DNA of 64,000 bases, taken from an uncultured Clostridia bacterium. GTDB lineage: Bacteria; Bacillota; Clostridia; Oscillospirales; Ruminococcaceae. Location: the NCBI GenBank assembly GCA_947632025.1, contig CANRNN010000001.1, positions 248,001 to 312,000 of the forward strand, read 5' to 3'. The position numbers were made by a program, and so were the translations under genes. Under the pieces are notes generated by a model. The model made no database searches, was not told where the DNA came from, and saw only the letters and a list, made by a program, of their open reading frames with translations. Below are positions 45,908 to 52,222 of the stretch, in pieces. How positions within the stretch are numbered: position 1 is the first letter of the stretch; each line of letters begins with the position of its first letter.

Positions 45908-47308
45908 TTATTCAATAGTTTTTCCCACAAGTATCCAATCGAATGCCTGTTCTATCTTAACGTTGACAAATCTGCCGATAAGCTCCTTGCCGCCGTCAAA
46001 ATCCACAATAACGTCCTGTGCGGTATGACCCGTAAGGAGCGTATCCTTTGACCTGCCCGTACCCTCGCACAGCACACGCAGCGTCTTTCCGACGTACTTT
46101 TCGTACATTCCGCGACCTATCTCGGACTGGACGTCCAAAAGCTCCCTGAACCATTTCCCCTTTTCCTCTGCGGATACGGGGTCGTCCATCGCGGCGGCTT
46201 TCGTGCCTTTTCTCGGACTGAAAATAAACGTGTACAGCGAATCATACTTTACTTCTCGTATAAGCGAGAGCGTTTCACCGAATTCCTCATATGTTTCCCC
46301 CGGAAACCCAACGATTACATCGGAGGTAAGCGCCGCGTCGGGAATTTTTTCACGGATATATTCTGTTATCCTCAGATAATCCTCTCGCGTGTAATGGCGG
46401 TTCATAAGCTCCAGTATCCTGTTTGAGCCGCTTTGTACGGGAAGATGAAAATGCCGCGTTACCTTTTCACATTTGGCTATAGTATCGACAAGCTCACGCG
46501 TTGCGTCCTTGGGGTGGCTTGACATATAGCATATTTTGAATTCCCCATCTATAGCGTTTATCCTGCGCAGAAGCTCAGGAAAGCTCGTTCCGAGATCCTT
46601 GCCGTAGGAATTGACGTTCTGCCCCAAAAGCAGTATTTCGCGGGCGCCGTTTTTAACAGCGCTCTCTACTTCCGAAATTATATCCGACAGTTCCCGCGAG
46701 CGCTCTCTGCCTCTTACATACGGCACTATGCAATAGCTGCAGAAATTATTGCACCCATACATTATCGGGACACTTGCCTTTATCTTGCTTTCACGGCGTA
46801 TCGGAAGCCCCTCGGCTATAACGCCGTCGTTTTTCGGGATATAGAATTCGCGCTTTCGCTCGGTAAGCTGACGGTACAAAAGCTCCGGCAACGTATGCAG
46901 AGCGTTCGTTCCGAACACCATATCGACGTGCGGGAAGCTGCGCTTTATCCTTTTCACAATATGCTCCTGCTCGACCATACAACCGCACACGCCAATTATC
47001 ATATCGGGGCGGGCATTTTTATTGTGCTTCAGCGCTCCGAGATTCCCGAACACCCTGTCCTCGGCGTTTTCGCGGACGGCGCAGGTGTTGAATATCACAA
47101 GATCCGCCCCTTCGGGAGAATCGCAGAAGCCGTAGCCCATATAGGCGAGCATTCCTTTTATTTTCTCGCCGTCGCTTACGTTCTGCTGACAGCCGAACGT
47201 ATGCACATACGCTGTCGGCGGGCTTTCGCGGGAGCTTAAAAGCTCCGATACCTTATCCGAAAATCCGCGCTGGAGCGAAAGCTCCTCTGCGGTTATCCTT
47301 GAAGTCAT
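45908..47308 (-). CDS. miaB: tRNA-2-methylthio-N6-isopentenyladenosine37 synthase
   Basis: MiaB adds sulfur and a methyl group to i6A37 in tRNA. The 466-residue protein has the N-terminal methylthiotransferase domain with three cluster cysteines (TFGCQQNVSD, FNTCAVREN, GVCGCMVEQEH), the radical SAM motif GCNNFCSYCIVPYVRGRERSR, and a C-terminal TRAM domain (LLTGHTAQDVIVDFDG). The prior gene recD2 ends 40 bases upstream. MiaA is encoded in the same run. Confidence 0.96.
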   Translation of the reverse strand: MTSRITAEELSLQRGFSDKVSELLSSRESPPTAYVHTFGCQQNVSDGEKIKGMLAYMGYGFCDSPEGADLVIFNTCAVRENAEDRVFGNLGALKHNKNARPDMIIGVCGCMVEQEHIVKRIKRSFPHVDMVFGTNALHTLPELLYRQLTERKREFYIPKNDGVIAEGLPIRRESKIKASVPIMYGCNNFCSYCIVPYVRGRERSRELSDIISEVESAVKNGAREILLLGQNVNSYGKDLGTSFPELLRRINAIDGEFKICYMSSHPKDATRELVDTIAKCEKVTRHFHLPVQSGSNRILELMNRHYTREDYLRITEYIREKIPDAALTSDVIVGFPGETYEEFGETLSLIREVKYDSLYTFIFSPRKGTKAAAMDDPVSAEEKGKWFRELLDVQSEIGRGMYEKYVGKTLRVLCEGTGRSKDTLLTGHTAQDVIVDFDGGKELIGRFVNVKIEQAFDWILVGKTIE

Positions 47309-47348: not shown

Positions 47349-49586
47349 TTACTCGTTTACAAAATGGTCTTCCAGCATAAATTTAAGGCAGGAGAACCGC
47401 TCAAAACGGCGGTCCTGATTCACCATTTCGCATACCTTCGCTTCTGTTCCGATGATGATGAGGGTTTTCTTTGCCCGTGTAACGGCAGTATACAGCAGGT
47501 TGCGGTATGAAAGCCTGTCCATTCTTACCGGAAGCAGGATAATAACAGCCGGATACTCGCTGCCCTGACTTTTATGTACTGTCATAGCGTAGGCGTGTTC
47601 GAGCTTTTTCAGCATTTCACTGTCATAGCACGCCGTTCTGCCCTCAAAATCTATATCACACTTATGGTTCACCTTATCGGTGTTTATAATTTTCCCTATA
47701 TCGCCGTTGAAGATACCGTGAGATACCTCGTCGCCGCGCCTCCACTCAACGTCGTAATCGTTGCGCGTCTGCATTATCTTGTCGCCGTCACGGATAAGCA
47801 CTCCCATATAATTCATTTCGCGCTTGTCCTTGCTCGGAGGATTTAAGGCGAGCTGAAGCTCCTTATTCACATTTTCTGTTCCTACAACACCCATTCTCGA
47901 CAGGCAAAGCACTTGGATATCGTCCTTCGGGTCGTAACCGTAGGCTTTCGGAAGCCGCGTCTTGCAAAGCTGTATGACAAGCCGCAGGGTATTTTCCTCG
48001 CTGTCGGAACGCATAAAGAAAAAGTCGTTGTCCCTGACCGAAAGCTCCGGCATTTCGCCGTGAATAATACTGTGAGCATTCGTTACGATAAGGCTTTTCG
48101 CTGCCTGACGGAATATCTCCTTAAGCTCCACTACGGGGACATAGCCGCTGTCGATAAGGTCACGCAGTATATTTCCCGCCCCCACGCTCGGCAGCTGATT
48201 GGAATCGCCCACCATTACCAGCCGTGCGGAATTTTTAAGCGCCCGCAGCAGCGACGCGAACAGCTGTGTGTCGACCATTGACATCTCGTCGATAATAACT
48301 ATGTCGCAGTCAAGCGGATTTTCCTCGCAGTGTCTGAAAACGATAACTCCGTCGGCGGAGTGGTCGACTTCAAGCAGTCTGTGTATCGTCTGGGCTGGAG
48401 CGCCCGTAAGGTCAGACATTCTTTTCGCAGCACGTCCCGTCGGAGCGGCAAGCTTTATGCGCATTCCACGCCGCCTGCAAAGCTCTATAACTCCGTTAAG
48501 CGTCGTGGTTTTTCCCGTACCCGGTCCTCCCGTAAGGATAAAAACGTGATTGTTCATACAAGCGTTTATCGCTTCGAGCTGTCGGGATTCGTAGGTTATG
48601 CCGTTTGATATGGCTACCGCCGTTATCTCGTCGGTGAAATCCGTTTCGCCGCCGTCGTCATAGCGGAGCATATCGTATATTTTCTGTGCGATAAAAGTTT
48701 CCGATATAAAATATTCCGAGAGAAATATGTAATGCCTGTCGTAAATATCGCAGCTTACCAGATCTCCTGCCGAAACGGCATTCTGCAGCGCCGAATAATA
48801 GAGCTTGTCGCTTACTATCAGTGCCTGTGTGACGGATATGCACAGCGAACTTTCAGGCAGACAGCAATGTCCCTCCCCTGCGGCTCGTTTAAGCATACAG
48901 ATTATTCCCGCGTAAACTCGCTCCTCGCTGTTCGGCGGGAAATCCAGATCCTGCGCTATACGTTCCGCGTCCTCGAACTTCAGGTCGATACCTGACGAAC
49001 ACAGCAGATACGGATTTTTGCAAACCTCGCGTATAAGCTCCGCTCCGTAAGCGCGCCATGCGGCTGAGATAACATACTGCGGCACGGAATACTTCGAGAA
49101 AAACGTCATGACCTTACGAAGTCCCGTGATGTTGTGGAATTCCATACCGATGAGCTTTGCCTTTTCACGGGTAACGCCCTTTATCTCTGCCAGACGTTCG
49201 GGTTCGCTTTCTATGACCTCGATGGTATGCTCGCCGAAGCGGCTTACTATTTTTCCGGCAAGCGACGCGCCCACGCCCTTTATAGCACCCGACGCGAGAT
49301 ATTTCCGTATGGCGTTCGTATCCGAAGGCAGTGTGCGGTCGAATATCTCCACCTTGAACTGCCTGCCGTACTTCGGGCTGTTGACATAATTTCCGTACAT
49401 CAGAAGCCGCTCGCCCTCGCGTACGTCGCCCATACAGCCAACCGCAGTGACAAGCTCGCTGCCTATCTTCATATCAAGCACGATGTAGGCGGAATTTTCG
49501 TTGTAATATACCACGTCCTCCACGTCGCCGCTAAGCTGTATAAGCTCCTGTTTTTCCTCGCCGGAACGATTCGTTGAGAGATCCAT
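47349..49586 (-). CDS. recD2: ATP-dependent DNA helicase RecD2
   Basis: RecD2 is a 5'-3' SF1B helicase not associated with RecBC. I start at the ATG at 49586 (AGGTGA upstream); earlier frame runs into the neighbouring gene. The 745-residue protein has the N-terminal OB/HhH region (LASGAIKGVGASLAGKIVSRFG, LAEIKGVTREKAKLIG), Walker A LTGGPGTGKTTT near 354-361, Walker B VIIDEMSMVD, GDSNQLPSVGAG, and motif VI near YTAVTRAKKTL with HKSQGSEYPAV before it. It lies 10 bases after a small membrane protein gene. Confidence 0.94.
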   Translation of the reverse strand: MDLSTNRSGEEKQELIQLSGDVEDVVYYNENSAYIVLDMKIGSELVTAVGCMGDVREGERLLMYGNYVNSPKYGRQFKVEIFDRTLPSDTNAIRKYLASGAIKGVGASLAGKIVSRFGEHTIEVIESEPERLAEIKGVTREKAKLIGMEFHNITGLRKVMTFFSKYSVPQYVISAAWRAYGAELIREVCKNPYLLCSSGIDLKFEDAERIAQDLDFPPNSEERVYAGIICMLKRAAGEGHCCLPESSLCISVTQALIVSDKLYYSALQNAVSAGDLVSCDIYDRHYIFLSEYFISETFIAQKIYDMLRYDDGGETDFTDEITAVAISNGITYESRQLEAINACMNNHVFILTGGPGTGKTTTLNGVIELCRRRGMRIKLAAPTGRAAKRMSDLTGAPAQTIHRLLEVDHSADGVIVFRHCEENPLDCDIVIIDEMSMVDTQLFASLLRALKNSARLVMVGDSNQLPSVGAGNILRDLIDSGYVPVVELKEIFRQAAKSLIVTNAHSIIHGEMPELSVRDNDFFFMRSDSEENTLRLVIQLCKTRLPKAYGYDPKDDIQVLCLSRMGVVGTENVNKELQLALNPPSKDKREMNYMGVLIRDGDKIMQTRNDYDVEWRRGDEVSHGIFNGDIGKIINTDKVNHKCDIDFEGRTACYDSEMLKKLEHAYAMTVHKSQGSEYPAVIILLPVRMDRLSYRNLLYTAVTRAKKTLIIIGTEAKVCEMVNQDRRFERFSCLKFMLEDHFVNE

Positions 49587-49596
49587 TATATAAAAT

Positions 49597-49887
49597 TCAC
49601 CTGTTCCGTTCTGCAAATTCGCTCTCGCCGATAATTTCCACATCGGGATAACGGGCAAAGAGAGCCCTTGTTTTCTCGTCCGTGCTGTCCGCTATGACAA
49701 AGACCTTTCCGATATTGGGATTGCTTCGGAGATTTTCGAGAAGCTCTGTTATATATTCGTTGTTTTTTACATAAATTTCAAACTTCCGCACACTGCTTTC
49801 AAAAAGCGCCCTGTACAGCACATGGACAAGAGCCGCCATTCCGAAAACAGAAATAAATATCAATGCGAAAACATATAAGAACCGCAT
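49597..49887 (-). CDS. Small single-pass membrane protein, unknown
   Basis: I start at the ATG at 49887, with GAGGTG 7 bases upstream. The 96-residue product has an N-terminal membrane helix (FLYVFALIFISVFGMAALVHVLY) followed by a soluble alpha/beta-like part (YVKNNEYITELLENLRSNPNIGKVFVIADSTDEKTRALFARYPDVEIIG) that reads like a small glycosyltransferase- or Rossmann-like strand-helix pattern. I do not recognise a family. It lies between prmA and recD2 and is co-directional with both. Confidence 0.75.
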   Translation of the reverse strand: MRFLYVFALIFISVFGMAALVHVLYRALFESSVRKFEIYVKNNEYITELLENLRSNPNIGKVFVIADSTDEKTRALFARYPDVEIIGESEFAERNR

Positions 49888-49930: not shown

Positions 49931-50893
49931 CTACCGCGAGAGCTTAACGCAGTTCCAGCCCTCCTCATGCTTCTGGAAAACGGTTTTCCAGCCTGCAGCT
50001 TTCAGCGCGTAAAGGACTTCTTCAAGCCGCTCGTCGATTATTCCCGAAACGATAAGAACGCCGCTCTCTGCCGCAAACTCCGAAAAATACGGACTCATAT
50101 CAATTATAACGTCCGCGACGATATTCGCGCATATAACGTCAAATCCGCCGCCTATTTTTTCGCGCAGGCTCTTGTCCTCGGCAATATTCCCGCAGAACGC
50201 CGAAAAGTTTTCAAATCTGTTCTTTTTTATATTCTCGGAGGCTGTGTTTACGGCGTTCTCGAAAATATCGCAGACCGAAGCTTTTTCTGCTCCGAGCAGG
50301 AACGCTGCTATTGTCAAAATACCGCTCCCGCAGCCGAGGTCCAGAACCTTATCACCGTCCTTTATCGTATCTTCAAGTGTTTCAATTACCATTTTTGTGG
50401 TGTGGTGCTGACCCGTGCCGAACGTTGACGCAGGATCTATTTCGAGAATTCTGTCGCCCTCTCGTGCGTCAAAATCCTCCCACGACGGTTTGATTATAAT
50501 GCTTTTTCCGATACGAAACGGCTTATAATATTTTTTCCAGTTGTTTGCCCAGTCTTCTTCCTTGACATTGGCAAGCTCCATTCTCAGATTTCCGTAAAAT
50601 CCGTCAGAATTTGAGAGTTTCAATTCTTCTATCATAGAACGGATACTTTCGAGCTGTTCTTTTCCTTGGGCATTGTCGTGAACGTAAACGGTAATGTGCG
50701 GCTCAACGGTTTTAAGTCCCATAAGACTGTCGTCGACGTAGTCCCAGTTTGCGTTCTTGTCGGCAAGGAATTCCTCAAAATCGGCGCTGTCCGATATAAT
50801 GAATCCCGTTATCCCGAAATCCGAAAGTCTTGCCGTTATTCCGTCGACAGCCGCCGACGACGTAAAAATATCTATCTGAATAAAGTTGTCCAT
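49931..50893 (-). CDS. prmA: Ribosomal protein L11 methyltransferase
   Basis: PrmA trimethylates lysines and the N-terminus of ribosomal protein L11. The 320-residue protein has an N-terminal substrate-recognition domain (about 1-120), the ASTFGTGQHHTTKM segment, SAM motif I DLGCGSGILTIAA and motif IV VICANIVADVI. Its mRNA leader contains the structured repeat at 50907-51048, placed between the promoter (51049-51077) and the GAGGTAATT ribosome site. Confidence 0.95.
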   Translation of the reverse strand: MDNFIQIDIFTSSAAVDGITARLSDFGITGFIISDSADFEEFLADKNANWDYVDDSLMGLKTVEPHITVYVHDNAQGKEQLESIRSMIEELKLSNSDGFYGNLRMELANVKEEDWANNWKKYYKPFRIGKSIIIKPSWEDFDAREGDRILEIDPASTFGTGQHHTTKMVIETLEDTIKDGDKVLDLGCGSGILTIAAFLLGAEKASVCDIFENAVNTASENIKKNRFENFSAFCGNIAEDKSLREKIGGGFDVICANIVADVIIDMSPYFSEFAAESGVLIVSGIIDERLEEVLYALKAAGWKTVFQKHEEGWNCVKLSR

Positions 50894-50906
50894 AATTACC
50901 TCAATT

Positions 50907-51048
50907 AGAAATAAGAGATTAGAAGTAAGGGGTAAGAGTTCAAGGTACGTCGGCTAGCGCCGACGATTGAATTGCTACGCAACAGATTATTACGGCGCGT
51001 ATAAGCCACGCGCACTCTCTAACCTCTTACCTCTAACATCTAACCTCT
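50907..51048 (-). repeat. Structured 142-bp inverted-repeat element in the prmA leader
   Basis: The ends are 32-base imperfect inverted repeats (50907-50938 and 51017-51048; 24 of 32 positions match). They are built of short repeated units of TTAGAGG/TAAGAGG type. Between them lie two strong hairpins: CGTCGGC-TAGC-GCCGACG (50948-50965) and GCGCGT/ACGCGC (50995-51013), plus a small TTGC/GCAA hairpin. Read in the prmA direction, four of the eight mismatches become G-U pairs, so the RNA form in that direction is the more stable one. No open frame is inside. It looks like a MITE-like or structured-RNA repeat that now forms the leader of prmA. Confidence 0.7.
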
Positions 51049-51077
51049 ATTATACCATATCTTGTATTAAAAATCAA
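51049..51077 (-). promoter_or_regulatory. Promoter of prmA operon
   Basis: On the minus strand TTGATT (51077-51072) and TATAAT (51054-51049) are 17 bases apart with TATGG before the -10. Transcription would begin just inside the repeat element, giving a leader of about 150 bases. Confidence 0.7.
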
Positions 51078-51235: not shown

Positions 51236-52222
51236 TTATCTCAAAACTTCGACTGCCGCGGGTTCGCCGAGGCAAGCCATATAGCTGTATTTGGACTTTA
51301 TCACGGGGTCTTTTATCGTGATTTTCACGCGGACGGTATCTCCCGGCTCTAAACCGTCAAAATCTATATCGTAGTCGTACATATTGCCGAGTTCAAAATA
51401 ATTCAATTCCCCGTACATCATGCCCCATGACGCTGACGCTCTGTGAAAGATGCCCTTCGGCTCAAATTCGGGGATATATTCATATAACACCGCAGGGATT
51501 TTTGAAGCGCATTCGCCGTCGGGATAAAACCACATATCGCCCGATGAAAAATACCCCTCTGTTTCCATAATCTGGATACAGCCTGTCATCTCAATCTCGC
51601 CCTCGTAGTCAATTTCCCCGTCTGTAAGATAAATTCCCGGAATTGTGTCGGGGTCAACCTCCTCTTCCCACACCGCAAAACTGTTCGAGAATATCGCCTG
51701 CGCGGATTTTACGGTAAGAGAGCCGAATTTATCGCCGACATTTATTCTGAAATAATCATAGCTCCGCGGAAGCTCCTCGCCCGAATACGTCCGACCGTCT
51801 TCTGTTTCCGTAAATTTTTCGGGAGATTCCGTAACGTTTACGTTAAGGCGCGGGAAAAACCCATACGTAAACCCCTCGCACACGGCTTGCAGGCATTCGG
51901 GGGTGGTGAACGTTTCCTTGTTGAACGCACCAAGCGGGTACTGCACGTGTTCGTGAGTGCCGAGAAATTCCGCGCCTTCCTGATATTTCGTGATCTGCGA
52001 CGTGTAAATTACCGTGCCGTCGGGGCAGGTCAGAAAGGTAGGCTCGCCTGCGGGAACTTCGGGTTCGGAGCTTTCTGGTTCGCTTTCAGAAATTTCCGAC
52101 GAAGTATTTTCGGAAACGGTACTTGATCTCTCGTCGGAGCTTTCGGGAATTTCACCCGAATCACAAGCCGAAAGCGTAAGTGTACAGAGCAGAGAAAGTG
52201 TAATTGCAGTTAATTTTTTCAT
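51236..52222 (-). CDS. Predicted lipoprotein of unknown function
   Basis: The 328-residue product has a lipobox LSAC with C20 as the lipidated residue. A Ser/Glu/Pro-rich linker (about 22-60) leads to an acidic, Tyr/Phe-rich extracellular domain with beta-strand character (GDTVRVKITIKDPVIKSKYSYMACLGEPAAVEVLR at the end). I do not recognise a family. A relic with the same signal sequence lies directly downstream, so the gene probably arose as one of a tandem pair. It would be processed by LspA. Confidence 0.8.
   Translation of the reverse strand: MKKLTAITLSLLCTLTLSACDSGEIPESSDERSSTVSENTSSEISESEPESSEPEVPAGEPTFLTCPDGTVIYTSQITKYQEGAEFLGTHEHVQYPLGAFNKETFTTPECLQAVCEGFTYGFFPRLNVNVTESPEKFTETEDGRTYSGEELPRSYDYFRINVGDKFGSLTVKSAQAIFSNSFAVWEEEVDPDTIPGIYLTDGEIDYEGEIEMTGCIQIMETEGYFSSGDMWFYPDGECASKIPAVLYEYIPEFEPKGIFHRASASWGMMYGELNYFELGNMYDYDIDFDGLEPGDTVRVKITIKDPVIKSKYSYMACLGEPAAVEVLR

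Follow-up and report, generated by a model that had tools for sequence, protein, structure and literature searches.

The inverted repeat that lies between the promoter and the start codon of prmA in the window (here, the entire 64,000-nucleotide stretch of DNA analyzed) is, in our assessment, probably a copy of a non-coding mosaic repeat, dispersed and non-autonomous, which is inserted between genes and trades contents among its slots, and not a dedicated prmA RNA switch. The family is multicopy and intergenic, with ends that are mostly TA, and junctions in sister genomes differ by the presence of the element, by its core, by its orientation or by the family of its arms.

Architecture of the prmA leader element

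The element spans approximately positions 50906-51049 and consists of two inverted arms that flank a three-hairpin core. The arms are tandem arrays of a heptamer with the consensus RGTWAGA, about 4.5 units per arm: the left arm (50906..50938, plus strand) comprises TAG followed by four heptamer units (TAGAAATAAGAGATTAGAAGTAAGGGGTAAGAG), and the right arm (51017..51049, minus strand) belongs to the same heptamer family in the inverted orientation (TAGAGGTTAGATGTTAGAGGTAAGAGGTTAGAG on the minus strand). Alignment of the arms bears out the 32-base imperfect terminal inverted repeat of the preliminary description (50907-50938 and 51017-51048, 8/32 positions mismatched), and the short tandem units mentioned there are real, being the heptamers that compose the arms. 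The extent of 142 bp proposed at that stage correctly captured an inverted element, with the natural boundaries located at about 50906-51049, not 50907-51048, the outer T being part of the unit in each arm. As also claimed, four of the eight mismatches (A/G type) become G-U pairs in the prmA-sense RNA only; one more (G/A) is a G-U pair only in the other strand, and the remaining three are of other types.

The left arm and a conserved two-hairpin core form module A (50905..50995, plus strand), which is found as a whole in other copies: query positions ~26-116 match further places in the same genome at 73-90%. Core hairpin 1 (50948..50965, plus strand; CGTCGGC-TAGC-GCCGACG) exists in three stem types among the copies, and core hairpin 2 (50972..50982, plus strand; TTGC-TAC-GCAA) is represented in other copies by a compensated TGCC/GGCA type. 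The third hairpin (50995..51013, plus strand; GCGCGT...ACGCGC) is perhaps a remnant of module B, known from longer copies. Module B (~80 bp) is also found elsewhere in the genome as an inverted pair lacking heptamer arms (C5:72370-72860; L240:1890-2360), and may be a separate repeat. The predicted fold is as strong as originally proposed, with minimum free energies of -60.5 kcal/mol for the prmA-sense strand (z -6.1) and -50.7 kcal/mol for the plus strand (z -5.4), and 0/200 shuffled sequences folding as well on either strand.

Downstream of the element are prmA (49931..50893), recD2 (47349..49658) and miaB (45908..47308), all on the minus strand, the previously assigned identities being supported by NCBIfam models above cut-off. 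The predicted extended -10 promoter (51049..51077, minus strand; TTGATT-17-TATAAT) places the element between promoter and prmA, as the initial reading had it. The -10 box and the right arm overlap by one base, the last T of the box being the first T of the arm, so that the predicted transcript, judging by promoter spacing, would start about seven bases inside the arm, near 51042, and most of the prmA 5' leader would be made up of the element. A Shine-Dalgarno-like GAGG (50899..50902, minus strand) is located just beyond the element edge and is present also in relatives that lack the element. The prmA promoter (CTTGATTTTTNNNACAANATATGGTATAAT), spacer included, is kept across much of the genus, and its only other mismatch-free match in the same genome is located 5' of a topoisomerase-B-like gene that also bears a heptamer element. 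Between prmA and ilvC, the window encodes a lipoprotein-like protein of 328 aa (51236-52222) with no NCBIfam match; in the related genome G001, prmA directly follows ilvC and this gene is missing.

Dispersal of the family and comparison of sister junctions

The search for further copies suggested in the preliminary description yielded them in abundance. A BLAST search with the element as query returned 69 pieces of its own genome at E values up to 10, and the pattern WAGARGTWAGARGTWAG, with one mismatch allowed, has 142 matches in the 2.36 Mb genome vs 0 for a reversed-pattern control; among 37 genomes of the same genus (the named relatives are metagenome bins), the number of matches ranges from 0 to 683. 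The whole-element query matches 15 of 61 genomes, all from one genus, and a longer pattern with two mismatches is found, patchily, in 33 of the 391 genomes covered from the class (26 of 223 genera); thus, the heptamer recurs widely, and matches to the entire element were found in the genus alone. We found no account of the RGTWAGA family in Clostridia in the open-licence PMC literature. The pattern also occurs in 17 stretches of a viral set, where the contexts, judged by eye, show heptamer arrays that are unrelated and for the most part lack inverted arms; on these grounds, carriage by phages was rejected.

All 42 copy groups identified in 424 kb of own-genome sequence (the window and stretches picked for holding copies, with ORFs called by a simple script) are located outside the called ORFs, between co-directional (31), divergent (7) or convergent (4) genes. 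In 10 of the 42 groups, the element overlaps the stop codon of the neighboring gene, its outer TAG or TAA acting as the stop. The outer unit starts with TA in 112 of 154 arms, vs 247 of 519 inner units. Many copies carry a single arm, and the cores of some copies are unrelated to each other. Under tolerant counting, five units are the commonest array length (71 of 186 arrays), also in a second heptamer family, ACAGTNN (9 of 18 arrays). A preference for insertion directly 3' of -10 boxes was considered and dropped, the signal being too weak (TANAAT at the outer end of 5 of 154 arms vs a background of 1.2%).

About eight copies are clustered within 20 kb of the same genome (L033; C2:76001-96000), where both sister genomes lack a copy at the two junctions that could be resolved in them. 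This clustering raised the idea of attC/integron-like arrays, which was set aside informally given that the copies share arms, sit at gene junctions and occur in both orientations. In another genome of the genus, G010, three loci (L188, L189 and L190) contain nested palindromes that are almost identical and have heptamer arms on the outside as well as the inside, with flanking hairpins in common, which suggests a recent composite spread.

We compared the junctions with those of two sister genomes, G025 and G009 (the genomes compared are 75-87% identical). The copies at C2:82699 and C2:84232 face heptamer-free junctions of 79-83 and 55-56 bases, respectively, in both sisters; in the reverse case, arms are present in G025 (L165, L170) and G009 (L179), with none at the own-genome junction, and for L169, one flank only could be matched. 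A heptamer copy is found at the same junction of the own genome for 9 of 13 groups of G025 and 7 of 8 groups of G009; for these counts, the own-genome stretches were first chosen for holding copies, and the five unmatched sister groups were then sought genome-wide by their flanks. Viewed from the own genome, heptamers of the RGTWAGA family occupy 8 of 11 resolved junctions in G025 and 7 of 9 in G009. These numbers, judged without a formal expectation, suggest that slots are shared in excess of chance. The cores in the shared slots differ in module and orientation; in the slot at C1:380735, G025 contains an ACAGT-type heptamer element in place of the RGTWAGA family, and in the L171 slot, the own genome contains a heptamer-free inverted pair of module B. 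No further element was found in the stretches of the sister genomes syntenic with the window. The window element together with its promoter matches another locus of G025 (86% over 187 bp), before a gene that, from its translation, is type II topoisomerase B-like; this similarity hints at a transfer between slots.

The earlier proposal of a MITE-like mobile repeat is largely supported by the many copies, their strictly intergenic location and their species-level presence or absence. No driver was found among the families searched (Y1_Tnp, RVT_1 and DDE_3), and inspection of flanks by eye revealed none of the target-site duplications predicted for a MITE beyond a possible TA. We envisage that an activity supplied elsewhere inserts copies at T/A-rich points that directly adjoin genes, such as stop codons and -10 boxes, and that the copies would then swap cores and arms among themselves via recombination or template switching. 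At prmA, one copy would have entered just 3' of the -10 box, recently, in the lineage of this genome and the sister G009, and would have become most of the 5' leader, leaving the promoter and the ribosome-binding site in place. The element is probably near-neutral for prmA and perhaps has a small effect on the stability of its mRNA.

Function in place, transposition and local origin

Of the competing explanations, the one that survives best, albeit as an unlikely one, is that this is a dispersed functional element, either a protein-binding heptamer array or an mRNA-stabilizing hairpin, that is kept at chosen junctions, with the structure selected while the sequence drifts. The sharing of slots by several species, at the level of divergence given above, could reflect function in place; the peak of array length at five units is compatible with such a role, and sites for regulators have been proposed for heptamers of Beggiatoaceae (PMC4679880) and Geobacter (PMC2700814). 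Furthermore, pairing in the core hairpins survives two-sided changes. Among 33 core copies (22 distinct), gathered with a pattern in which the bases surrounding the hairpins are fixed, hairpin 1 has the stem types TCGGC/GCCGA, TTCGC/GCGAA and CCCGC/GCGGG, in addition to variants with at least one mismatch, and two stem types are found for hairpin 2; 93.6% of the hairpin 1 stem cells are paired vs a mean of 77.5% and a maximum of 85.5% in 2000 shuffles (uncorrected for kinship). Such covariation fits RNA, single-stranded DNA, a cruciform or correction of palindromes without selection, and cannot tell RNA structure from DNA structure. Against a functional element stand the swaps of cores, the empty sites, the lack of strand bias, the occurrence in both gene orientations and the absence from many genomes of the same genus.

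The same inverted arms, TA-biased outer ends and high copy number would also befit a classical MITE, with heptamers as terminal inverted repeats mobilized by one DDE transposase and a TA duplication; we consider this improbable, given that no duplication beyond a possible TA was seen by eye, that many copies have a single arm and that some cores are unrelated. Nor does the distribution of DDE_3, the sole DDE family searched, favor it: this family scores over the cut-off in 1 of the 37 same-genus genomes and in none of the copy-rich ones. Y1_Tnp is present in 8 of the 37 genomes and RVT_1 in 13, both with no match in the five copy-richest ones (G002, G005, G007, G010 and G034), and the single Y1_Tnp match of the own genome contains a stop. 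Accordingly, RAYT/REPIN (Y1_Tnp), reverse transcriptase (RVT_1) and IS630-type transposase (DDE_3) were all rejected as drivers, since none of the three varies with copy number. The copy numbers of the RGTWAGA and ACAGTNN families do correlate with each other (Spearman coefficient of 0.82 over the 37 genomes, uncorrected for shared ancestry).

Similar heptamer arrays in unrelated bacteria would allow repeated independent origin, which speaks against a single mobile family, and their scatter over the class and over unrelated viral-set contigs could be explained if replication slippage and inverted duplication made the arrays locally, with nothing moving. This origin is quite improbable in view of the cores common to separate loci (73-90% identity), the inverted arrangement of the arms and an arm length that peaks instead of falling off.

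With regard to a cis-regulatory RNA of the prmA-recD2-miaB operon, which the preliminary description proposed and which the leader position and the strong fold would favor, we compared the leaders of 25 prmA orthologs and four more places, three of these genomes apparently repeating earlier loci (the anchoring of L073 is not clean, and L074 and L075 are more distant). Among these leaders, a heptamer-type element is located between the prmA promoter and the start codon in the sister G009 only (L051), and this insert differs from the element analyzed here; in L064, L065 and L071, heptamers are found 5' of the promoter. The prmA junction of G025 is missing from the assembly, and a closer orthologous copy could be present there. 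In the G009 leader (L206:3586-3690), the heptamers (AGAGGTAAGAGGTATG) appear to provide the prmA ribosome-binding site. The long stem shows no pair-specific upkeep: among 13 elements with full arms, arm mismatch is 0.165 both within and between elements, a value equaled or undercut in 49% of permutations, and in a wider set of 29 elements, it is 0.172 within vs 0.188 between (11% as low). Compensating changes, which were to be sought among copies, are seen in the internal hairpins and not in the long stem. The hint of a kept RNA direction, taken from the G-U pairs, is not upheld: the A/G asymmetry is 4:1 in the window copy, and over the family it averages out at 36:35 (34 arm pairs) or 29:29 (29 pairs, each right arm used once), with two of the four G-U positions (51045 and 51044) falling upstream of the predicted transcript start. 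At the Rfam gathering score, there are 0 matches in 7 sources of related loci, and the window gives sub-threshold matches only. With the element lacking from other prmA leaders and the long stem lacking covariation, a prmA-specific RNA was rejected as extremely improbable.

Relation to known heptamer repeats

The RGTWAGA family invites comparison with several described systems. The GGGAATC heptamers of Xanthomonas are tandem and mostly intergenic, four units are the commonest array length, and convergent inverted pairs number 70 and 75 (Rehm et al. 2015, PMC4692102); the present family shares the tandem intergenic heptamers and the inverted pairs. The Xanthomonas unit, however, is unrelated, G-rich and tied to G-quadruplexes, whereas RGTWAGA, lacking GGG runs, needs none, and structured cores and slot exchange are not described for the Xanthomonas repeats in the available part of that account (PMC4692102). 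Geobacter metallireducens has multicopy elements of four tandem heptamers and another class of five, with the units GGACCGG and MTYCTGA read as regulatory sites; unlike the RGTWAGA copies, the four-heptamer class occurs also inside genes (PMC2700814). The TAACTGA arrays of Beggiatoaceae are intergenic and patchily distributed, and are direct (with one inverted case), mostly oriented and adjoin start codons (PMC4679880), whereas RGTWAGA arms are inverted. REPINs resemble the element in being inverted doublets that form a hairpin, with singlets as possible remnants, and their mobilization in trans by RAYT has been proposed (PMC3116915); by contrast, the genomes rich in RGTWAGA copies lack a Y1 transposase, and the arms are heptamer tandems. 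BrickBuilt of Porphyromonas, a MITE with a minisatellite, combines a tandem repeat with an intergenic inverted-end element, but its unit is 23 bp long and central (PMC4596501), whereas the 7-bp units of the RGTWAGA element are at the ends.

The STRR of Nostoc and other cyanobacteria are also heptamer arrays (PMC2670836). The RGTWAGA family likewise consists of tandem 7-bp units in intergenic DNA, and differs in phylum and in unit. Elhai et al. are said to have described, in 2008, SDR hairpins nested in cyanobacterial STRR heptamers, and the present family similarly has a GTTATCCGC..GCGGATAAC hairpin inside heptamer arms. We know of no paired-arm modules like A and B in STRR. Heptamer tandems are thus a known kind of repeat; what appears to be new is that heptamer arms whose length peaks, structured cores that can be exchanged and the replacement of one heptamer family by another in a slot are combined in a genus of Clostridia.

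For genomes of this kind, these results carry the warning that strong folding of a leader should not be taken as evidence of a riboregulator. Heptamer repeats in unrelated bacteria have so far been explained separately, by quadruplexes, regulator sites or slippage. A broader and rather doubtful conjecture is that an unrecognized trans-acting activity spreads inverted pairs of about five tandem heptamers of any sequence. In the present genus, it would drive two or more unrelated families (RGTWAGA and ACAGTNN), which co-vary in copy number and replace each other at one junction, and the elements with four or five heptamers in Xanthomonas, Geobacter and cyanobacteria might be products of the same kind of machine. 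A family that lacks G-runs and has a similar arm length, inverted pairing and slots that change their content makes a shared mobility mechanism testable.
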